From contig JAFLJO010000100.1 in assembly GCA_022712975.1 (NCBI GenBank), positions 1 through 64,000 on the forward strand: a stretch of DNA of 64,000 nucleotides, read 5' to 3'. How positions within the stretch are numbered: position 1 is the first letter of the stretch; every line of letters begins with the position of its first letter. A program made the position numbers and the translations under genes. The notes under the pieces were generated by a model, which saw only the letters and a program-made list of their open reading frames with translations, did not search any database and was not told the origin of the DNA. This DNA is from Desulfocapsa sp. (GTDB taxonomy: Bacteria > Desulfobacterota > Desulfobulbia > Desulfobulbales > Desulfocapsaceae). Positions 48,736-61,461 of the stretch are shown here, piece by piece.

Positions 48736-48900
48736 GAACATCTACGGAGTCTGCGCTTACCTGGAGTCTGCGTTTACCTACTTGCCCTTTGTTCCGCCAC
48801 CTGTACTTGAAAAAACGTTACATACAGGTAGTGTGCAAAGTTTTTTCAAGTACAGGTGTCGAAAAAATGTGGCGTAGGTAAGCGCAGACTCCGATATGTT
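48736..48900. repeat. Long inverted-repeat (MITE-like) element
   Basis: Outer arms GGAGTCTGCG..TTACCTAC / GTAGGTAAGCGCAGACTCC; inner perfect 19-bp arms 48798-48816 and 48840-48858. Confidence 0.85.
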
Positions 48901-49076: not shown

Positions 49077-49580
49077 ATGGCTACTGAAAACAAGTTAACT
49101 GCAAGTCAGGAAGATTATCTTGAGGCAATCTATCATATTTCCTCCGCAAAGATGGCTTCCCGGGCAAAAGATATCTCTATTCGTCTCAATGTACGGGCGT
49201 CCTCCGTCACAGGGGCACTCCGAACTTTAGGGAAGTTGGGTCTTATTAACTATGCTCCGTATGATTTAATTACATTAACGGATGAAGGCCGTGTTGTTGC
49301 TGAGGAAATTGTACGTCGTCATAAGGCTCTGGAGCACTTTCTGGTTAATGTACTTGGTGTTGATCAGAAAGAAGCTGACGAGGCTGCCTGCAAGATGGAG
49401 CATTCTGTGCCCAAGGAAATTGTCGACCGGTTTGTGAAGTATGCCGAATATGTGGAGAAGTGCCCGAAAGGAGGCATTACCTGGAATTCCGGTTTCGGTT
49501 ATTATTGTAAACACGGCTGTACCGAGGAAAATTGCGAACATTATTCGAGCGAATTGTCTGAGAAAAAAATCACCATATAA
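49077..49580 (+). CDS. DtxR/MntR-family metalloregulator
   Basis: TASQEDYLEAIYHIS, RLNVRASSVTGALRTLGKLGLINYAPYDLITLTDEG, ACKMEHSVPKEIVDR; Cys-rich tail. Confidence 0.92.
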   Translation: MATENKLTASQEDYLEAIYHISSAKMASRAKDISIRLNVRASSVTGALRTLGKLGLINYAPYDLITLTDEGRVVAEEIVRRHKALEHFLVNVLGVDQKEADEAACKMEHSVPKEIVDRFVKYAEYVEKCPKGGITWNSGFGYYCKHGCTEENCEHYSSELSEKKITI

Positions 49581-50153: not shown

Positions 50154-50618
50154 ATGAAACAAAAGAAAAAAGTAAAACTTAGTGCCAGCCTGGAAGACTA
50201 CCTGGAAGCAATCTACCTGATCTGCAAGGAAGATGGCGAGGCTCGTTCCAAGAAGATTAAGGAGCATCTGCAGGTAAGCGGTCCGTCAGTCACTGAGGCT
50301 CTGCAACTGCTTGCGGGGAAGGGGCTGGTTAATTATGTCCCTTATGAACGTATTACCCTCACTCCAGAGGGAAATGAGATAGCCCGTGATGTATTGCATC
50401 GTCACGAAACACTACGGGATTTCTTTATTGATGTGCTGGGTATTGACGCCAAACTTGCAGATGAAGGAGCATGCAAGATGGAGCATGTGGCCTCAGCAAA
50501 CATTATTGATCGGATGGTTAACTATACAAAATACCTCAAAATAGAATGTAAAGGGCATGGCTGCGACAAAGTGAATTGCTTTGGTGATTATTTAAAAGAA
50601 AAAAGGAGGAAGGCCTGA
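50154..50618 (+). CDS. DtxR/MntR-family metalloregulator
   Basis: LSASLEDYLEAIYLIC, VSGPSVTEALQLLAGKGLVNYVPYERITLTPEG, ACKMEHVASANIIDR. Confidence 0.92.
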   Translation: MKQKKKVKLSASLEDYLEAIYLICKEDGEARSKKIKEHLQVSGPSVTEALQLLAGKGLVNYVPYERITLTPEGNEIARDVLHRHETLRDFFIDVLGIDAKLADEGACKMEHVASANIIDRMVNYTKYLKIECKGHGCDKVNCFGDYLKEKRRKA

Positions 50619-50639: not shown

Positions 50640-51002
50640 ATGGATACCATGAATAATATGCCGATTTACAGTGTTCAACCCAGCTCTCCACAGGTGGTTA
50701 TCGCACCACAATTCACCCCGGCAGGAACATTGATCTCAACCTTAACCATTGCCAGTGCGGTAAGCATCGGTTCCAACATGCTTGATGTGCAAAACGGTTC
50801 CATGACAATACCACAGGCACTATTAAACGGTGTTGCCAAAGGAACAGCTGCCACTCTTGTCCTGAATGCCACCGCAAGAAGCACTGTCCTACAGGTAATC
50901 ATAGCAGCGGGTACCCTTGCCGGAGCTGGATATCTGATTGACTCGTCAATGAAAAAGAACAAGCAGGAACTTTGCCGTATTGAAGAGAGTCCTGCAAGAT
51001 GA
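50640..51002 (+). CDS. Small Gly/Ala-rich membrane protein with P/Q-rich N-tail; paralog of 58392..58784
   Basis: GSNMLDVQNGSMTIPQALLNGVAKGTAATLVLNATA; ATGA overlap with the following ATPase. Confidence 0.75.
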   Translation: MDTMNNMPIYSVQPSSPQVVIAPQFTPAGTLISTLTIASAVSIGSNMLDVQNGSMTIPQALLNGVAKGTAATLVLNATARSTVLQVIIAAGTLAGAGYLIDSSMKKNKQELCRIEESPAR

Positions 51003-53128
51003 GCCTGTTTGCCCGTTCATCCATAATCGTTGCCCATGAACTTGACAGGCGGATTCGTCTGCGCTGCAGGGTGTTGAAGAAAAAAAACCTTGATTCGGAT
51101 TATTTTGAAGCCAGTCTGGAATCTATTCCAGGAGTTTTTGATGTTCGGGTGAATACCAGAGCAGCCTCCGTGGCCATTGGCTATGATGGCAGGAGCGAAA
51201 CAAGAGACTCCATAATTAACTGCCTGACAGACCTTCCAGGCGAAGTCTTTAGTTTACGAGGTCGTGGAAAGCCACGAATACCCCAGTCCATTCTATCACT
51301 TGGAGTAAAGGGCGGATTGGCTCTGTCGATTCTCTTTCTGCCGCCAATTATACGTATTCCTGTTGCGATAATTTTTTCAGCCCCTGTTGTCCTTGATGGA
51401 GTGATCACTCTCTGGACTCGCGGGGTTAAGGTAGAAGTGCTGGATGCCTCTGCTGTCCTGTTCTGCCTTGTCCGCCGTGATTTCTTCACTGCTGCATCCA
51501 TTGTTTTTCTTCTGTCCGTTGGAGAATACCTCGAGGAACTCAGTGAAAATCGAACCACGGGCCTGCTGAAAAGCTTGCTCAAACCCCAGGTTGAAAATAT
51601 CTGGATTGAGCTTGAAGATGGGCAGGAAATGGAGATTCCTGTCGATCAGGCACGCATCGGTGACAGGATTATTTGTGGTGCTGGAGAACTCATCCCCCTT
51701 GACGGAAAAGTAGTTGCAGGTGAGGCTTCTGTAAACACCAGTTCTATCACCGGGGAATCTGTACCTGTGCATGTGGAACCCGGAACCGATGTGTTATCCG
51801 GTTCTGTAATCGTTGATGGCCGCATTGTCTTTAGCGCAAGTCATGTGGGAACTGATACTGCCATGGCACGTATTTCCACTTTCCTTGAAAACTCCCTCCG
51901 CTATGAATCTGAATCACAGAAAAAAAGTGATGAGCTTGCCGATAAACTGGTGCCTGTAACTTTTGGACTCGGGCTTGGTCTGCTTGTTGTAACCCGTGAT
52001 CTTGAAAAAGCTGCGGCGGTGCTCACCGTTGATTATTCCTGTGCCATAAAGCTTGCCAATCCTGTGGCTGTAAGGGTGGCAATGTTTACCGCCGCAAACC
52101 ATGGTGTTCTGCTGAAAGGTTCGCAGGCCATGGACGGTCTTGCACGGGTTGACACTCTCGTATTTGACAAAACCGGGACGTTAACAAAAGGTCAGCTTAA
52201 AGTAACAGATATCCACGCCCATGGTTCCTACAGTGATGACGAATTGCTGATTCTCGCTGCAAGTGCCGAAGAACATTATTCCCATCCGGTTGCTTCCGCT
52301 GTTGTTCAGGCTGCAAAAGATAATGGTCTTGCTTTATCTTCTGCCAGTCAGGTCGACTTTATTGTGGCCCATGGTGTGTCTGCGTACATAGACGGAAAAA
52401 ACGTGTTGGTAGGAAGCAGGCACTTTATTGAAGCAGATGAAGGAATCGACTGTTCCGGTGTTGGTGATTTCGTAACCGCATTACAAAAAGATGGCAAGAG
52501 CCTCTTGTATGTTGCGTGCGAAGAGAAATTGGCAGGTGTTATTGGTCTGCGTGATGAACTGCGTCCTGAGGCAAATGAAGTTCTGAACCGACTTAAGGCA
52601 ACGGGAATCAAAAAAATAGTGATTCTTACAGGAGACGCTGAACTCACCGCAAAAGCTCTTGCAGCACAATTGCCTGCAGTGGATGAAGTGCATTGGGAGT
52701 TAAAGCCGGAAGAAAAGGCAGCAATCGTAAATGAATTACAGAATCAGGGATGTCGGGTTGGTTTTACGGGAGATGGAGTCAATGATGCTCCTGCTCTGGT
52801 ATCAGCAGATGTTGGTATTTGTCTGCCGGAGGGAGCAGATCTTGCCAAGGAATCGGCTCAGGTTATTTTACTTCGGGACGACCTCTATTGCCTGCTCGCA
52901 GGACGCTTGATTGCTCTGCGCAGTCAGCAAACCATCAAACATTCGTTTATTTCAGCAGTGGGTTTGAACTCAGCCTTTCTTTTTCTGGCAAGTTTTGGGC
53001 TCATTCAGCCAGTTACCGCTGCACTTCTGCATAACGCAAGTACGGTTGGAATTTTAGGTTATGCCGGTATCAGGGGAAAAAAGAAGATGAACCTTCAATC
53101 TGAAAAACAAATTTCTCATTCGGAATAA
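50999..53128 (+). CDS. P1B-type ATPase with SCA motif (P1B-6/FezB-like candidate)
   Basis: N-term HELDRRIRLRCRVLKKK, TGESVP, VDYSCAIKLANP, DKTGTLTKG, YSHPVA, GDGVNDAPAL. Confidence 0.88.
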   Translation: MSLFARSSIIVAHELDRRIRLRCRVLKKKNLDSDYFEASLESIPGVFDVRVNTRAASVAIGYDGRSETRDSIINCLTDLPGEVFSLRGRGKPRIPQSILSLGVKGGLALSILFLPPIIRIPVAIIFSAPVVLDGVITLWTRGVKVEVLDASAVLFCLVRRDFFTAASIVFLLSVGEYLEELSENRTTGLLKSLLKPQVENIWIELEDGQEMEIPVDQARIGDRIICGAGELIPLDGKVVAGEASVNTSSITGESVPVHVEPGTDVLSGSVIVDGRIVFSASHVGTDTAMARISTFLENSLRYESESQKKSDELADKLVPVTFGLGLGLLVVTRDLEKAAAVLTVDYSCAIKLANPVAVRVAMFTAANHGVLLKGSQAMDGLARVDTLVFDKTGTLTKGQLKVTDIHAHGSYSDDELLILAASAEEHYSHPVASAVVQAAKDNGLALSSASQVDFIVAHGVSAYIDGKNVLVGSRHFIEADEGIDCSGVGDFVTALQKDGKSLLYVACEEKLAGVIGLRDELRPEANEVLNRLKATGIKKIVILTGDAELTAKALAAQLPAVDEVHWELKPEEKAAIVNELQNQGCRVGFTGDGVNDAPALVSADVGICLPEGADLAKESAQVILLRDDLYCLLAGRLIALRSQQTIKHSFISAVGLNSAFLFLASFGLIQPVTAALLHNASTVGILGYAGIRGKKKMNLQSEKQISHSE

Positions 53129-53130
53129 TT

Positions 53131-53922
53131 ATGTATTCAGCACTTATAGATGCACCGATCCATACGGATCTGACTTTACTTGAAATTACAAGTCCAAAAC
53201 TTGCCAGCTGGCTGCAACGGTTTGGTTTGTTTATTGGCAGTACTATTATTCGCCATGATGAAGAAGTCAACTATCATCCTGTCAGGGTGCGTGGAACAAA
53301 GGGTGATGTGGTAGTGCCAGCAGGTCTTGGCATAAAAGTCATCGTCCATTCCGAAACTGGGGAACGCAAACCATTAGTGGAAATGAAGAAGAAGGAGAAG
53401 GGACATATCGAGACTATGTCCTGTGGCCGCGGCTGCATTCAGGCACTTTCCCGCTTAGGTGTCGAGGAGGATTCGGATGTTGTTTTTATCCGTTCGCTGC
53501 CGCATATGGATTATATCACGTTGATTGATAAAATTGTACGAACACGAATATCTGAAGGAGAGGCATCACGGCTCTGGGGAAAGTGCGAAGGCGAAGAAGA
53601 AACACAATTTTATTTTGCCACAAAGAATAAACCATTTCTAGTACAGGAAATTATCGGTGGACACCAAGTTAAGGAACATTTGAAGACTCATGCAATAGAA
53701 CCGGGAGCATCTCTTGTACTGGAGAACATCGAGCAGACTAGCGAGTTGCATAAACCGGGAGTTACACCAGTCACTATTTCAAGTGCAGGTGGATTGCGAC
53801 TTTATCTGAATCCTGCTCAGGCAGGTAAGATAATTGTGAAAAGTGCTGACCGGGAAAATGAAAACCATTCTCCCGGTCAGCAACATTCAGATATAGATGC
53901 AGAGACAGAGGGTGAGAAATAA
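53131..53922 (+). CDS. Multi-FeoA-like domain protein
   Basis: LTLLEITSPKLASWLQRFGLFIGSTIIRHDEEV..VRVRGTKGDVVVPAGLG..; IETMSCGRGCIQALSRLGVEEDSDVVFI; FLVQEIIGGHQVKEHLKTHAIEPGASLVL. Confidence 0.7.
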   Translation: MYSALIDAPIHTDLTLLEITSPKLASWLQRFGLFIGSTIIRHDEEVNYHPVRVRGTKGDVVVPAGLGIKVIVHSETGERKPLVEMKKKEKGHIETMSCGRGCIQALSRLGVEEDSDVVFIRSLPHMDYITLIDKIVRTRISEGEASRLWGKCEGEEETQFYFATKNKPFLVQEIIGGHQVKEHLKTHAIEPGASLVLENIEQTSELHKPGVTPVTISSAGGLRLYLNPAQAGKIIVKSADRENENHSPGQQHSDIDAETEGEK

Positions 53923-53924
53923 GC

Positions 53925-54206
53925 TTATGCTTTTCCTGCTACCTCATCCTGAGCCTCATTCCACATTTCAGAGTATTTCTCTTTGGTGGAGGACATGGAC
54001 TCGCCAACCTTCATTTTGGCTTTATAGGCAGTTTTCATGGCGCCCTTTACAGCACGGTCGGCAAAGCATTCCTGTCCAACCTGTTCTTCATTTTTCAAAC
54101 CAGTTTTTTTTCCGGCTTTATAGGCCAGGTAACCGGCAACGCCAAGTACGGCCCAGCCGAGCGGGTTGGTGGTCAGCAAGGGGAGATACACTATTGGAGT
54201 GGCCAT
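53925..54206 (-). CDS. Small single-TM protein (GWAVLGVAGYLAYKAGKKTG)
   Basis: ORF with TAATG overlap to the upstream small gene. Confidence 0.75.
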   Translation of the reverse strand: MATPIVYLPLLTTNPLGWAVLGVAGYLAYKAGKKTGLKNEEQVGQECFADRAVKGAMKTAYKAKMKVGESMSSTKEKYSEMWNEAQDEVAGKA

Positions 54207-54385
54207 TATTTGTCTCCTTTTGTTTCTTTTTTATCTTCAGCTTCAATTTGGGCTGGAACTGCGGTGATTTGAGAAGCAGCAGCCTCTTCTTCGCCTTTTT
54301 TCTTGCCTCTTTTATACAATGCGTAACCGCCAAGGCCGAGAATCAGCCAGCCAATAGGGGTTGTTGCCAGTGGTACATAAATCAT
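54206..54385 (-). CDS. 59-aa single-TM protein MIYVPLATTPIGWLILGLGGYALYKRGKKKGEEEAAASQITAVPAQIEAEDKKETKGDK (absent from ORF track, below length cutoff)
   Basis: Manual translation; GGAGG-like RBS upstream (aaggaggtcaac); paralogous to 53925..54206. Confidence 0.78.
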   Translation of the reverse strand: MIYVPLATTPIGWLILGLGGYALYKRGKKKGEEEAAASQITAVPAQIEAEDKKETKGDK

Positions 54386-54603: not shown

Positions 54604-56910
54604 ATGAACGCTATCATACCGGAGAATCATCCTCGGATCAGTAAAATGATACTCAAAAAAACTGGTGTCAAGGTTAAACAATCCATGCCCGGCCGTATGC
54701 GAATTCGCGTGAACAGTTTGCAGCGGCGTGTGAAGAGAGCAGGCTGGATGCAGGAACATCTGAGAAGAGCAGAGGGAATCAACAGTGTGGAGATACGCTC
54801 TGCAACAGGGTCCGTTATTGTTTTTTTTAACCCGGAAGAGATATCAATCAAAGCCATCTTGCAGGAAGTCGTTGAGCAGATTCTCCATCCTGTTTCCTAT
54901 CCCGAACCCTCGGAACCATTACCCGGTTTTAAGAGTCTCTGCAAGAGTTGTGATTGCGGTTCAAAGGTGGCTTATAGTACCAAATTGCGTCGGGTTGTAT
55001 GGCTCTCAACATTCATGCTTTATTCAGTGGTTCGCATGTGGATTTTCCGGCTACCGCTTGCACAAAATCCGATTAGTTTAATCGGTCTTGTTGCCATGGC
55101 CGGTGCGGCAACATTGTTAAAAGAAGCTGTGGTCGATGTCGCTGAGAAAAAGAAACTGACTGCCACTCCCTTTCTCGCCTTTGGCAGTTTGGCAACTATT
55201 GCCATGGGGCAGGCATTTTCTGCTCTGCAGATTATCTGGATTTACAATGTTGCAGAGCTTACAGAGGATTATGTGGGGCAGCGTTCCCGCCAGGCCATTC
55301 GGGATATTCTGGAAGTAGCCCCGGCCAATGCCTATGTCATGGTTGATGGCATGGAGCTTGAAACAAAGGTCGCAGACATTAAGCCTGGAGATATTGTTGT
55401 TGTTCATACCGGTGAAAAAGTTCCTGTGGATGGGGTGGTGGATGAAGGTGACGCATTAGTGGATGAGGCATCCATCAACGGACGATCAGAGGCAATTCTG
55501 CGCAGCAGGGGAGACAATGTGTACGCCGGCACCATTGTAAGCCAGGGGGTTCTGTTTATTCATACGATTAAAACCGGAGAAGACACCTATCTTTCCCATA
55601 TCATGCAGATGGTGGAAGATTCCATGTCCAATAAAGCACCGGTTGAGCAGAAGGCCGATGAGCTTGCCGCCCGCCTGATGAAAGTAGGGATTGCAGCCAC
55701 CGCTCTTACCCTGTTGCTCACAGGAGACCCCATGCGGGCATTAACTGTGATGCTGGTTATGTCCTGCCCCTGTGCCACTGTACTTGCTGCTTCTTCTGCG
55801 GTGACTGCAGCGGTGGCAAATGCCGCAAAACATTCGATACTTATAAAAGGCGGACTTTACCTTGAAACCATCGGCAAGGCAGATGTTTACTGCTTTGATA
55901 AAACCGGCACACTCACCATGGAGCAGCCGGAAATAATCGCTGTGCTTGGCAGAACACCATCAATTACAGAAGAATCCATCATCGCCATGGCTGCCACCGC
56001 AGAATCCCATAATCAGCATCCAATGGCCAAGGCAATTTTGGCAGAAGCTGATGCCCGGAATTTAACCCCCGAACCCCATGCCGTCTGTGAGTTTAAAGCA
56101 GGTCGCGGCGTACTCTGTACCATTGGAGGCGATGCTGTGATTCTTGTTGGGAATCGTCAGTTCATGGAAGAGCATGAAGTGGATATTCGCTGGTTTAATA
56201 AAAGGGCAGCAGCCCAACGGGAAATGGGGAACACCGTAGTCTTTGTGGCAAAAAACGGCAAAGCCAAAGGTATGCTTGGTGTGGCAAATCCTGTACGACC
56301 TGAAGCTGTAAGAGTACTCAACTGCCTGCGGGGTGATGGAGTAAAAGCCATACATCTTGTAACGGGAGATAATGAAGAAGTGGCGCAAACCATGATGAAT
56401 GTCTTTCCTTTTGATGATTGCAGAGCAGCTCTTATGCCGGAAGAAAAGGCAGCACGGGTGCAGGAACTGAAAAAAGGAAGTATCGTGGTTATGGTGGGAG
56501 ATGGTGTCAACGATGCCCTGGCTCTTTCCCATGCAGATATTGGTATCGCGATGGGAGTGGGTGGTGCAGAGGTTGCCATGGAAGCGGCAGACATTGCACT
56601 TGCTGATTCGAATCTGGAAGGTTTGATGAAAGTCCGCAACCTGAGCCATAAAACCATGACAATAATAGATCAAAATCACTATATGGCGGTTTCCACAGAT
56701 CTTATTGGTGCAGCTCTTGGGATGCTCGGTATGCTGTCACCGATTATGGCCGGAATGATTCATATTTTTCATACGGGGGGGATTTTACTTAATTCCGGGC
56801 GACTTCTTTCCTGGGAACCTCCGGTGGAACCAATGGATAAGTGTCGTGGATGTTTGCTGGGCTGCAAGTGTGGCAATGCAAACTGTAATCGCAAATGTAA
56901 AACCTGTTAA
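54604..56910 (+). CDS. P1B-type ATPase with CPC motif, altered TGE loop and Cys-rich C-tail
   Basis: MPGRMRIRVNSLQRRVKRAG, INGRSEA, SCPCATVLA, DKTGTLTME, NQHPMA, GDGVNDALAL, CRGCLLGCKCGNANCNRKCKTC. Confidence 0.9.
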   Translation: MNAIIPENHPRISKMILKKTGVKVKQSMPGRMRIRVNSLQRRVKRAGWMQEHLRRAEGINSVEIRSATGSVIVFFNPEEISIKAILQEVVEQILHPVSYPEPSEPLPGFKSLCKSCDCGSKVAYSTKLRRVVWLSTFMLYSVVRMWIFRLPLAQNPISLIGLVAMAGAATLLKEAVVDVAEKKKLTATPFLAFGSLATIAMGQAFSALQIIWIYNVAELTEDYVGQRSRQAIRDILEVAPANAYVMVDGMELETKVADIKPGDIVVVHTGEKVPVDGVVDEGDALVDEASINGRSEAILRSRGDNVYAGTIVSQGVLFIHTIKTGEDTYLSHIMQMVEDSMSNKAPVEQKADELAARLMKVGIAATALTLLLTGDPMRALTVMLVMSCPCATVLAASSAVTAAVANAAKHSILIKGGLYLETIGKADVYCFDKTGTLTMEQPEIIAVLGRTPSITEESIIAMAATAESHNQHPMAKAILAEADARNLTPEPHAVCEFKAGRGVLCTIGGDAVILVGNRQFMEEHEVDIRWFNKRAAAQREMGNTVVFVAKNGKAKGMLGVANPVRPEAVRVLNCLRGDGVKAIHLVTGDNEEVAQTMMNVFPFDDCRAALMPEEKAARVQELKKGSIVVMVGDGVNDALALSHADIGIAMGVGGAEVAMEAADIALADSNLEGLMKVRNLSHKTMTIIDQNHYMAVSTDLIGAALGMLGMLSPIMAGMIHIFHTGGILLNSGRLLSWEPPVEPMDKCRGCLLGCKCGNANCNRKCKTC

Positions 56911-56921
56911 AAAGAGGGAAG

Positions 56922-57428
56922 ATGAAATACACAATTACCGATAAAAGCCGGGTGGATTTTACAGCCCAGGCACCCATGCATACCTTTAGAGGGTGGGCAG
57001 TCGAGGGCATGGAGGGAGAAATCGATATAGGTTTTGATTCCCTTGAGTTACACCATATTAAAGTATCAGTGGATGCCAACTGTTTTGACACTGGAGATGC
57101 TGGCAAGAACAAGGCAATGGTGGATTTCTTTGAACTCGATAGTCATCCTGAAGCGTCTTTCATAATGACTGAGTGTCGGGAATTTTGCCGAATGGAAAAT
57201 GACGAATACAAGATGACCGTGCTTGGGATACTTGAACTGTCAGGTATCCGTCGGCAACTGCCAATTGTCTGTATGGTTACAAAGAATGATGAGATGATGA
57301 TAATTGATCTGCAATTCAAGTGGTCATTTAAAGCCTATGGTATGAAAGCTCCCAGACTTCTTTTTATGACGGTGAGAGACATCGTGGATATTAAAGCGCA
57401 TCTTGAATTTATATTGGTTAAGGACTGA
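56922..57428 (+). CDS. YceI-family protein
   Basis: YTITDKSRVDFTAQAPMHTFRGWAVEGMEGEIDI..KNKAMVDFFELDSHPEASF..LELSGIRRQ; no signal peptide evident. Confidence 0.75.
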   Translation: MKYTITDKSRVDFTAQAPMHTFRGWAVEGMEGEIDIGFDSLELHHIKVSVDANCFDTGDAGKNKAMVDFFELDSHPEASFIMTECREFCRMENDEYKMTVLGILELSGIRRQLPIVCMVTKNDEMMIIDLQFKWSFKAYGMKAPRLLFMTVRDIVDIKAHLEFILVKD

Positions 57429-57434
57429 GGAAAA

Positions 57435-57776
57435 ATGACACAATTGAGCAATGAAGAAATAGTAGCTGGTTTTCTTGATCATGTTCGTTATCTCAAGGTT
57501 AAACATCATGTTAACGGGCGGATTCGAGTGAAGGCCAACTGGAATGGTGCAAAAAAGCTGGCCGTAATGAAAGAAGGAGAGCTGGAAAGAATTATCACCT
57601 CTATTCCAGGTATTAAAGAGTATAGGGTGAACCCGAAGGCATTGTCTGTGATCATTGAATACGATCCGGATGTACTCCCTTTTTCACTATGGGAGGAGGT
57701 CGGCACCCTTGGCGAGTACCCGGCTAATCGGGCGAATGTGCAGACTCAGCTCCTTGATATTTTGAACAGGGCATAA
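57435..57776 (+). CDS. Standalone HMA-like domain protein without CxxC (FezC-like candidate)
   Basis: VNGRIRVKANWNGAKKLAVMKEGELERIITSIPGIKEYRVNPKALSVIIEYDPDVL parallels the ATPase N-termini. Confidence 0.72.
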   Translation: MTQLSNEEIVAGFLDHVRYLKVKHHVNGRIRVKANWNGAKKLAVMKEGELERIITSIPGIKEYRVNPKALSVIIEYDPDVLPFSLWEEVGTLGEYPANRANVQTQLLDILNRA

Positions 57777-57787
57777 CGGAGAATACA

Positions 57788-58363
57788 ATGGAAGATCAGA
57801 TACATTCAGAGACAGAAAATGCAGAAGCAGAGAGTTCAGAAGCAGTAGATAACGCAAATGAACAAGACCCGTCGGCATCAGCGGAGGAAGTCACACCGCA
57901 GCCTCAGCAGACATATCACCTGCCCCCTGGATATGCCTATGACCCGGCAAGCGGGCAGGTCTTTTATGTCGGGCCTGCAATACAACAGCCGGTACAGCCG
58001 ATCTCTTCACAACCGGGGGTGTATAGCCAGCCACAGCAGCCGGATCCTGAACAAGTTGCAGCTGCACAGGCTGCATCCACACAGCGTTACGGTCAGGTTA
58101 TTAATTCGGTGGAACAGTTTCTTGAGGGCGAGGCCACTGTATCCGATGTGGTGAAAACGCTTTACACCAATACAGCACAGGACGATCAACTTTGGAAGGG
58201 GATAATTGTCGGTGCAGCAGCAGCGATGCTACTGACAAGCGAACCGGTACGAAAAGCTATGGGCCAGACTCTTGGTGGTGTATTTCCTGGATTGAAACAG
58301 AGTAAACAAACTCAGCAGACAGCCGGAACATCAACGGCTGCTGCTGAAAATACAACAACCTAA
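57788..58363 (+). CDS. P/Q-rich protein with Gly/Ala-rich TM segment; paralog of 58860..59192
   Basis: YHLPPGYAYDPASGQVFYVGPAIQQPVQPIS; DQLWKGIIVGAAAAMLLTSEPVRKA. Confidence 0.72.
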   Translation: MEDQIHSETENAEAESSEAVDNANEQDPSASAEEVTPQPQQTYHLPPGYAYDPASGQVFYVGPAIQQPVQPISSQPGVYSQPQQPDPEQVAAAQAASTQRYGQVINSVEQFLEGEATVSDVVKTLYTNTAQDDQLWKGIIVGAAAAMLLTSEPVRKAMGQTLGGVFPGLKQSKQTQQTAGTSTAAAENTTT

Positions 58364-58391: not shown

Positions 58392-58784
58392 ATGGAAACA
58401 GCAAATATCAATACTGCTATGGCGCAGACAGATCCTTTACATCAGTATGCCGTTCCTGTACATCAGTATGCGGTTCCTGTACAGCAGCAACCTGTGAACT
58501 ATCCGGTGCAAACAGATGTCAGTACCTCTCCGGTAATTGCAGCCGGAATATTTGGTCTTATCGTTGCCGGTACCGGAACAATGGGTGCTAATCTGCATAA
58601 GGTGAATGACGGAAAAATGACCATGGGTGAAGCCATGGGCAACAGCCTAGTAAAAGGTGCAGCAGGCGGGGTTGCCGCAGCATCTGCAACAGCTGCCACA
58701 GCTACTTTTACCAATGGTGGACTTGCTGGTTTGGCGGTCACTCTAGCTGCTGCAACAGGAGTGAGTTATTTGCTTGGCAAGTAA
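58392..58784 (+). CDS. Gly/Ala-rich membrane protein; paralog of 50640..51002
   Basis: HQYAVPVHQYAVPVQQQPV repeats; GANLHKVNDGKMTMGEAMGNSLVKGAAGGVAAASATAAT. Confidence 0.75.
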   Translation: METANINTAMAQTDPLHQYAVPVHQYAVPVQQQPVNYPVQTDVSTSPVIAAGIFGLIVAGTGTMGANLHKVNDGKMTMGEAMGNSLVKGAAGGVAAASATAATATFTNGGLAGLAVTLAAATGVSYLLGK

Positions 58785-58859: not shown

Positions 58860-59192
58860 ATGGCAGATCAATTAGTACAGCAACAGGTTCAACCGCAAAT
58901 GGCATACCAACAACCCGCAGCACCCGTTTATCAGCAAACTGTTCCTGTTCAGGCAGTTGTCCCGGTTGCAGCAACAAGTACTATTCTTGGACTCGATGTT
59001 CAGGATACAACATTTTGGAAAGGAGCGTTACTCGGAGCTGCAGTTGCCATGCTGGTAACAAATGAAACCGTACAAAAGTGTGTGGTTAAAAGTGTGTCCA
59101 AGCTTACCGCTGCTGCTCAGAGCGGTGTTGAGGAAATGAAGGAAAAATTTGAAGATGCCAAGGCAGAAGCTCTGGCTGAGACCGATAAATAG
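58860..59192 (+). CDS. P/Q-rich small membrane protein; paralog of 57788..58363
   Basis: QQQVQPQMAYQQPAAPVYQQTVPVQ; DTTFWKGALLGAAVAMLVTNETVQKC. Confidence 0.75.
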   Translation: MADQLVQQQVQPQMAYQQPAAPVYQQTVPVQAVVPVAATSTILGLDVQDTTFWKGALLGAAVAMLVTNETVQKCVVKSVSKLTAAAQSGVEEMKEKFEDAKAEALAETDK

Positions 59193-59268: not shown

Positions 59269-61461
59269 ATGCCAGGTATTCAGTATTCCATAAAACATTG
59301 TCAACCCTACCGAACACGAATTCGTTTTTTCCATCTTAAACGGCGGAAAAACTTATGTGCTGTTGTACAAACAAGATTGCTGGATGTATCCGGAATCACT
59401 AGTGCACAGGTTCGTGACAGTTCAGGTTCTGTAATTGTTGAGCATCCCGACGGAGCAATTCCACTTGACCTGATTGTAAATATTGTGGGCGGGGTTCCTA
59501 CGGTCAATGCAGACTTAAATTCAGAAGATTCATCGAATAATTTGCAGCGACTCTCCTCTTCTTGTGGTTGCAGCAGTATTCACAATTCCACTGGGAAAAA
59601 TCACGTATCCGGGCGGATTCTTTTACTCTCCGGTCTCTATATTTTCTATCTTTTTGCTAAACGCTTATTCACAACCGTTGTGATCCCCACAGCTTTTATA
59701 TCCCGTGTTTTTACTTTACCTGCCCTTGTAGCTTTTGGGCTTTCCCGTCCCATTCAACGACAGGCCATAGAAAATTTCAAACAAAGTGGAAAGCCCGATA
59801 TGGGGCTAATTTCCACAGGATTACTCTATGTTTCTATCCTGACAGGAGATGTACTGGCAGCCCTTGTTGTTTTCTGGCTGTTCAATCTGTCGAGCTGGCT
59901 TGAAGATCGCATTAAGACACGAACCAGACAGGCAGTACGTGAAATGTTGAGTGGTAAGGTACACAATGCCTGGCTGGTCAGAGATGGTGCAGAAATTGAG
60001 GTGGAAGTTGATAGTCTTACGCCAGGCGATATCATCAGTCTTCGTCTCGGCAATACTATTCCGGTAGACGGCACGGTGAAACAGGGGTATTCCCTTGTAA
60101 ATGAGTCAACGCTTACCGGAGAAGGAATGCCGGTGATAAGGCAAACAGGTGACACTGTACTTGCCGGAACCGTACTGGAAGAGGGAGATATTTTAGTAAG
60201 AGTTGATAGGGCAGGAGAAGAAACGCGCCTTGCTGCTATTATTCGCCTCATTGAGACAGCAGAGACTGAGCCCGGAGAGTTGCAACTTACCAGTCAGCGA
60301 TTCTCTCAGGCCATGGTGCCGGTCTCTTTAATTCTTGCCGCAAGTGCGTTTATTTTTACAGGCAGCCTGCTTCAGGCCATGGCAGTGCTGATCATCACCT
60401 GTCCCTGTGCTTTGCGGCTTTCAACTTCCGTGGCCGTAAGCTCCGCTATGAGTCATGCCGCCACAGAGGGTATCCTGATCAAGGGCGGTCGATATATAGA
60501 AATAGCGGGTAAAGTCAATGTTCTGGTGCTCGACAAAACCGGAACACTTACAGATATGGCATCGGAAGTTGCGACAGTCACTGTTCTTGATAAACGCTTT
60601 AAGGCAGATACGATTATACAGCTTGCTGCCAGTGCCCAGAAAACGTGGCCACACCCATTGAGTCGAGCGGTAACAAACCAGGCAGAGAAGCTTGGGTTGC
60701 CGCTACTTGCCTGTGAAGAAACGAACCTGACAGTGGGACAGGGAGTAAAGGCAATAATAAAAAACGGTAAAAAGGATGTCCTGGTCGGCAACAGCTCCTT
60801 TATGGAAAAGAATCATATTTCCTGCTCCCATAAAATTGTAGCTCGGAAGCAAAAAGAAATTTCCGGGGCAAGTAGGTTGTATGTGGCCTGCAATGATTGT
60901 CTAATCGGTCTTATCGAAACAAGAAGCCAAGTTAGAGGAGACGTCGTTCAGTGCGTAAAACATCTGCGCGCCATGGGTGTGGCTCATATCGTTCTTCTCA
61001 CCGGTGACCATAAATCAGGCACCAATGGTTTAAAAGAAAGATTTGGCTTCGATGAGGTTCACTGGAACCAATCCCCTGAAGACAAAGCATCCTGGATTAA
61101 AAAGTGGAAAGCTGCTCACCCCGAAGATATTGTCGCCATGGTAGGTGATGGAATCAACGACACCCCGGCCTTTGCCACTGCTGATTTAAGCCTGGCTATC
61201 GGTGAAGGCGGAGCTGATGTGACCGTTGAATGTGCTGATATTGTCCTGCAACGGGGCGGCATTGATCAGGTTGCAACAAGCATTGCACTCGGTAGAAAAA
61301 CGCTGGGCACCATCAAGGAAAGCTACGCTATAGCCATCAGTATGAATGCAGGAACCCTTGGCCTGACAACCCTTGGTGTTATTTCTCCGATTGCCGGTGC
61401 TTTGTTGCACAATATGATCACTGTTGCTGCTGTGACGAATGCAGGCAAAGTGAAGATATAA
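59269..61461 (+). CDS. P1B-type ATPase with CPC motif
   Basis: YRTRIRFFHLKRRKN N-term, LTGEGMPV, TCPCALRLS, DKTGTLTDM, WPHPLS, GDGINDTPA. Confidence 0.9.
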   Translation: MPGIQYSIKHCQPYRTRIRFFHLKRRKNLCAVVQTRLLDVSGITSAQVRDSSGSVIVEHPDGAIPLDLIVNIVGGVPTVNADLNSEDSSNNLQRLSSSCGCSSIHNSTGKNHVSGRILLLSGLYIFYLFAKRLFTTVVIPTAFISRVFTLPALVAFGLSRPIQRQAIENFKQSGKPDMGLISTGLLYVSILTGDVLAALVVFWLFNLSSWLEDRIKTRTRQAVREMLSGKVHNAWLVRDGAEIEVEVDSLTPGDIISLRLGNTIPVDGTVKQGYSLVNESTLTGEGMPVIRQTGDTVLAGTVLEEGDILVRVDRAGEETRLAAIIRLIETAETEPGELQLTSQRFSQAMVPVSLILAASAFIFTGSLLQAMAVLIITCPCALRLSTSVAVSSAMSHAATEGILIKGGRYIEIAGKVNVLVLDKTGTLTDMASEVATVTVLDKRFKADTIIQLAASAQKTWPHPLSRAVTNQAEKLGLPLLACEETNLTVGQGVKAIIKNGKKDVLVGNSSFMEKNHISCSHKIVARKQKEISGASRLYVACNDCLIGLIETRSQVRGDVVQCVKHLRAMGVAHIVLLTGDHKSGTNGLKERFGFDEVHWNQSPEDKASWIKKWKAAHPEDIVAMVGDGINDTPAFATADLSLAIGEGGADVTVECADIVLQRGGIDQVATSIALGRKTLGTIKESYAIAISMNAGTLGLTTLGVISPIAGALLHNMITVAAVTNAGKVKI

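Follow-up and report, generated by a model that had tools for sequence, protein, structure and literature searches.

The glutamate of the TGE loop is treated as a universal feature of P-type ATPases; in the P1B-ATPases dephosphorylation is carried out by this loop, which has been termed omnipresent (PMC10973460), and in KdpB the glutamate of TGES coordinates the attacking water (PMC9651954). What, then, does a P-type ATPase that lacks this residue do? The question is raised by a 64-kb stretch of DNA from a Desulfocapsa sp. genome (the window, that is, the whole stretch analysed), which holds three P-type ATPase genes, all on the + strand: 50999-53128 (709 aa), 54604-56910 (768 aa) and 59269-61461 (730 aa). 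A preliminary description of the window had reported a disrupted TGE loop in the second of these and had proposed a slow, locked or regulatory ATPase, possibly with a metal-sensing role. We find that the change marks a lineage in which arginine is fixed at the glutamate site and the rest of the catalytic machinery is under selection; such a lineage is a natural test of the roles of a phosphoenzyme apart from transport.

An arginine replaces the TGE glutamate in a P1B-type ATPase

The disrupted loop is real. Within the intact 768-aa reading frame of the second ATPase (protein P0001, hereafter the NGR ATPase), the codons gca tcc atc aac gga cga tca gag gca at 55468-55494 read A-S-I-N-G-R-S-E-A (residues 289-297), in the wider loop D-E-A-S-I-N-G-R-S-E-A-I, and the actuator loop is DEASINGRSEAI at the site where other P-type ATPases have TGE. 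The altered segment, SINGRSEA, occupies 55471-55494 (+ strand), with the codons of Arg294 and Glu296 at 55483-55485 and 55489-55491. The other two window ATPases have the normal loops originally reported for them, SITGESVP in 50999-53128 and TLTGEGMP in 59269-61461. While arginine occupies the glutamate position of the NGR ATPase, DKTGT (with Asp432; 55897-55911), HP and GDGVND (residues 632-637; 56497-56514) are intact, as had also been seen, and so is TGD.

All three window ATPases match the Pfam families E1-E2_ATPase and Hydrolase and exceed the cut-off of TIGR01525, the NCBIfam model for heavy-metal P1B-ATPases; HMA_2 is above its cut-off in the first and second and weaker in the third, which has a CPC motif. 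In the NGR ATPase the HMA_2 domain is N-terminal (PF19991, residues 22-95, E 1.2e-11; 54667-54888), CPC lies at residues 388-390 (55765-55773), and an HxxH motif (His720 and His723; 56761-56772) lies in the last transmembrane (TM) segment. An AlphaFold2 model built from a 46-sequence alignment (pLDDT 85.5, pTM 0.82) predicts a complete P1B fold. Sequence and fold comparisons with the PDB both place CopA and ZntA structures first, with AfCopA (7r0g) closest to the model at TM 0.66-0.68, and E2-state structures fit less well. The model is E1-like and gives neither a placement of the arginine in E2P nor a position of the loop near Asp432.

The glutamate was lost once

Relatives of P0001, sought in the phylum and class of the window and in one order, share roughly 34-92% identity with it. 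Most members of the clade that they form score above 475 bits against P0001, and the best TGE ATPase of the phylum sample scores 395 bits; one divergent member (L081, 390 bits) falls inside the score range of the TGE ATPases and was placed in the clade by the tree. Across 52 clade loci (49 in the alignment and tree, plus L216, L228 and L264 read separately) the residue at the glutamate position is Arg in 48, Cys in two, Val in one, Gln in one and Glu in none, and the change is thus no private mutation; the remaining ATPases of that tree all have Glu at the site (64/64). Because a 92% identical ortholog from a genome of the same genus carries an identical INGRSEA, and because no clade member has Glu, neither chance nor sequencing error accounts for the loop.

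In a maximum-likelihood tree of 113 ATPases, made with the loop columns left out, the 49 rows without Glu form one clade (SH-aLRT 100), and the loss amounts to one change of state, compared with a mean of 36.8 after shuffling. The tree was made by a quick method and some of its branches are long, but the branch that leads to the clade is strong. The nearest row outside the clade, L212, has TGES. We conclude that a single loss of the catalytic TGE glutamate took place in the ancestor of a separate lineage of P1B-ATPases, whose members now nearly always have arginine at the site. This lineage has the DKTGT, TGD and GDGxND motifs of the P-type superfamily and lacks the catalytic TGE glutamate (0/52); it has the P1B features of CPC and HP (both 49/49) and GxG, and P0001 itself has a TIGR01525 score above cut-off and a model that matches CopA. 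Its single clade-wide loss is of the kind expected of pseudoenzymes, in which loss of a catalytic residue is fixed across orthologs.

Absence outside the phylum of the window was judged from samples of three other phyla. At E <= 1e-115 no match was found in 299 genomes of the phylum that includes the genome of L083 (titled Gammaproteobacteria) or in 150 of the phylum that includes that of L134 (titled Planctomycetales); 148 genomes from the phylum of the L093 genome (titled Nitrospira) gave a single match, with normal TGES. A single-protein scan of viral contigs gave no match, plasmids held ATPases at ~31% identity only, and a genome-contig scan with overly general peptide patterns drew generic TGE ATPases. 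The literature search, with most subscription papers outside its reach, turned up no natural P1B-ATPase that lacks TGE; a trypanosome flippase-like protein without TGES is of unclear identity (PMC6658743).

The arginine and the phosphorylation residues are under selection

Loss of the glutamate has left the phosphorylating half of the enzyme in place. Asp432, Lys433, Thr434, Gly435, Glu467, His472-Pro473, Gly500 and Gly502 (GxG), Lys615, GDGxND and CPC are found in all 49 aligned clade members, and Thr436 and the Asp of TGD in 48. All six arginine codons are in use at the altered site (CGG 13, CGC 10, AGG 7, CGT 5, CGA 5, AGA 5), so the arginine has persisted while its codon changed synonymously many times. 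Of six pairwise dN/dS values for the NGR ATPase, five lie between 0.04 and 0.10 and one, from a close pair, is 0.33, similar to the 0.04-0.16 of the neighbouring ATPase. Together, the codon usage and the mostly low dN/dS mean that the arginine is selected and is not a product of decay.

Like CopA and ZntA (7r0g, 4umv), the NGR ATPase has the P1B fold with its A, P and N domains, CPC, DKTGT, HP, GxG, TGD and GDGxND. Unlike them, it has Arg for the TGE Glu, HxxH in the last TM segment (49/49 in the clade) and, across the clade, mostly HNxHP instead of SEHP in the N domain; position 723, His in every aligned member, is a different residue in at least 61 of the 64 TGE ATPases of the tree. In many clade members the linker that follows HMA_2 contains Cys clusters. 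Separately, the NGR ATPase ends in a Cys-rich tail (residues 734-768; 7 Cys in 35 residues), which is also found in L038 and L203, occurs with 4 Cys in L204-L206 and L210, and is missing from most other members.

Pairing with a second ATPase in a probable iron cluster

The neighbouring ATPase (50999-53128) has DYSCA in TM4, and from this SCA-type motif of the published P1B scheme we take it to be of the P1B-6 type. P1B-6 ATPases are assigned to Fe(II) in a review (PMC7558416). At 38 of the 52 loci the clade gene is accompanied on the same strand, 3.6-5.0 kb away start to start, by a gene for an ATPase with an ordinary TGE loop whose TM4 contains D(Y/F)SC(A/V), classed as P1B-6-type by that motif. 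At five loci (L066, L074, L078, L079 and L081) it instead adjoins the gene of a PEGL P-type ATPase of ~1000 aa, and a Pfam scan of one of these (that of L066) gave a weak N-terminal match to HMA_2; the genomes of these five gave no P1B-6 match at E <= 1e-100. Neither partner type is seen at 9 of the 52 loci, four of them at or near contig ends: for L043, L201 and L068 a P1B-6 gene lies on another contig of the same genome, and in L210 the clade gene is at the contig edge. No second ATPase was seen on usable contigs for L064, L067, L076 and L077, and L065 has an ATP3-type ATPase only. In L213, L214 and L217-L220 the first P1B-6-type ATPase is followed downstream by another, P1B-6-like one, whose TM4 contains (F/Y)ACAVKFP and whose TGE is normal.

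The two genes also occur together across genomes. In the order of genome G265 (199 genomes), 28 genomes have a strong P1B-6 match (at least 640 bits), and an NGR or TGR gene is present in 27 of these, 26 by the order search and one (G1605) by reading of the locus; in the remaining genome the P1B-6 gene lies on a 3-kb contig. The other 171 genomes gave no NGR or TGR gene (0/171) in a search that had missed G1605, so this absence is not watertight, and because the genomes of the order are related, the co-occurrences are not independent events.

The genes around the pair point to iron. In the window, all on the + strand, they include two DtxR-family iron-dependent repressors (49077-49580 and 50154-50618), a FeoA-domain-like protein at 53131-53922 (FeoA 20.4 bits, below the Pfam cut-off; its counterpart in a sister cluster scores 80 bits), a YceI-domain protein (56922-57428) and a stand-alone HMA_2 domain protein (57435-57776). 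The regulators around clade genes are DtxR and Fur, FeoB is nearby in several loci, and Pfam matches among 85 neighbour ORFs comprise FeoA-domain (12), HMA_2 (7), DUF5132 (4), weak DUF4405 (3) and YceI (3). Given these iron regulators and FeoA-domain, HMA_2, DUF5132, DUF4405-like and FeoB genes, a ferrosome-like iron cluster is the likely setting of the NGR ATPase gene. The P1B-6 ATPase of ferrosomes is FezB. Ferrosomes contain FezB as a putative Fe(II) transporter, and their FezC is a DUF4405-like cytochrome (PMC11334425). Much as in FezB clusters, genes for an ATPase that is P1B-6-type by its motif, FeoA-domain, HMA_2, DUF5132 and FezC-like DUF4405 proteins and Fur/DtxR stand beside the NGR ATPase gene, with the DUF4405 matches weak and located in sister clusters; Pfam found no DUF4405 protein in the window. 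By motif and tree the NGR ATPase is not itself the P1B-6 protein, having CPC instead of an SCA-type motif in TM4 and belonging to a different clade. It would be an unstudied component of such clusters.

Possible roles of the NGR ATPase

Since the glutamate is gone while the phosphorylating half is fixed, the simplest reading is an ATPase that would charge itself with phosphate, lose it slowly, and work on or with the adjacent pump. We tentatively favour this reading, giving it somewhat short of an even chance: the NGR ATPase would autophosphorylate without the standard dephosphorylation residue and, as a partner of the iron pump encoded next to it, act as a latch or a regulator. It would bind metal (through CPC and HMA_2) and ATP, and the aspartyl-phosphate would form normally; lacking the side chain that normally orients the water for attack, the phosphoenzyme would be long-lived, and the arginine may even hold the phosphate or a contact between the A and P domains. 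The protein could then serve as a latched subunit of, or a switch for, the adjacent P1B-6-type (Fe2+) ATPase in ferrosome-like iron storage; phosphoenzyme stability, a physical or functional partnership, and iron as the metal are points that we infer. A bolder version, in which phosphorylation and dephosphorylation have been split, and a stable phosphoenzyme is an ATP-charged latch or regulatory subunit of its partner ATPase in iron-organelle loading, the two forming a hetero-oligomeric P-type pair, is conceivable and rather doubtful.

There are partial precedents for such a latch. Phosphorylation of a serine in the TGES loop of KdpB inhibits the pump (PMC9651954), a natural off-switch that likewise latches a P-type ATPase through an altered loop, although in KdpB the modification is reversible and Glu is present, whereas in the NGR ATPase the replacement of Glu by Arg is fixed. 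Mutation of the TGE phosphatase loop of ATP7B traps the protein in vesicles, and ATP7B and ATP7A mutants without TGE function either fail to dephosphorylate or are trapped in this way (PMC5428812); those are laboratory or disease mutants, whereas the NGR ATPase is a natural lineage. The slow, locked or regulatory ATPase of the preliminary description fits the kept phosphorylation half, the fixed loss of Glu and the frequent pairing with a normal ATPase; it is unproven, and the role of the Glu may have passed to an acid two positions further along. Its metal-sensing role has nothing specific behind it except the HMA_2 domain, the CPC motif and the Cys clusters. Counting against a latch are this acid, the four loci with no visible second ATPase and the one with an ATP3-type only, and the nature of the pairing, which is linkage and not contact.

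The main rival reading is that catalysis has been rewired by a register shift of the loop, such that the acid at +2 (Glu296) would activate water and the arginine would contact the phosphate in a working, perhaps slower, metal pump. Glu or Asp is present two residues after the arginine in 47 of the 52 clade members, whereas the same position in the TGE set is mostly hydrophobic (Glu in 3/64). Most clade members have also lost the Pro normally found at +3; these two changes suggest that the loop backbone has probably changed. The strictly kept CPC and TM residues, which a pump would need, also favour this reading. However, the acid is replaced in five members (L068 V, L074 M, L078 Q, L080 Q, L081 F) that keep the other catalytic residues, and the arginine (48/52) is conserved at least as well as the acid. 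We regard rewired catalysis as possible and on the unlikely side.

Dephosphorylation in trans, in which the actuator domain of the neighbour or another protein would remove the phosphate within a heterodimer that transports jointly, would suit the frequent same-strand pairing. The divergence of the NGR ATPase and that of its P1B-6 partner are strongly correlated (r 0.92 over 30 loci), a value that shared inheritance explains as well. Several loci have no partner, however, and dephosphorylation in trans is not known to us from any P-type ATPase, which makes this reading improbable. We consider it slightly less probable still that the NGR ATPase no longer cycles and is a scaffold or metal buffer, a structural or metal-binding membrane protein: the catalytic residue is lost, and HMA_2 and the Cys clusters could bind metal, but the residues for phosphorylation and ATP binding do not vary across 49 divergent members, which is unexpected if they are unused. 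A private mutation, a pseudogene or a sequencing error is ruled out for practical purposes by the 52 loci, the single clade, the intact frames and purifying selection.

Small genes and repeats around the cluster

Three small proteins with an Ala/Gly-rich membrane segment are encoded between the HMA_2 protein and the third ATPase (57788-58363, 58392-58784 and 58860-59192, + strand); they have homologs in clade clusters and a DUF5132-like counterpart in a sister cluster. Another small Ala/Gly-rich membrane-type protein (50640-51002, + strand), which matches no Pfam family, is distantly similar by phmmer to that at 58392-58784. Two small ORFs on the - strand (53925-54206 and 54206-54385) run opposite to the operon and have in common a GW..LG..GY..YK.GKK.G-like motif, possibly as tandem small membrane proteins. 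Upstream of the first DtxR gene, nested inverted repeats at 48745-48893 (18 nt, 100% complementary, and 37 nt, 84% complementary) resemble a palindromic insertion element.
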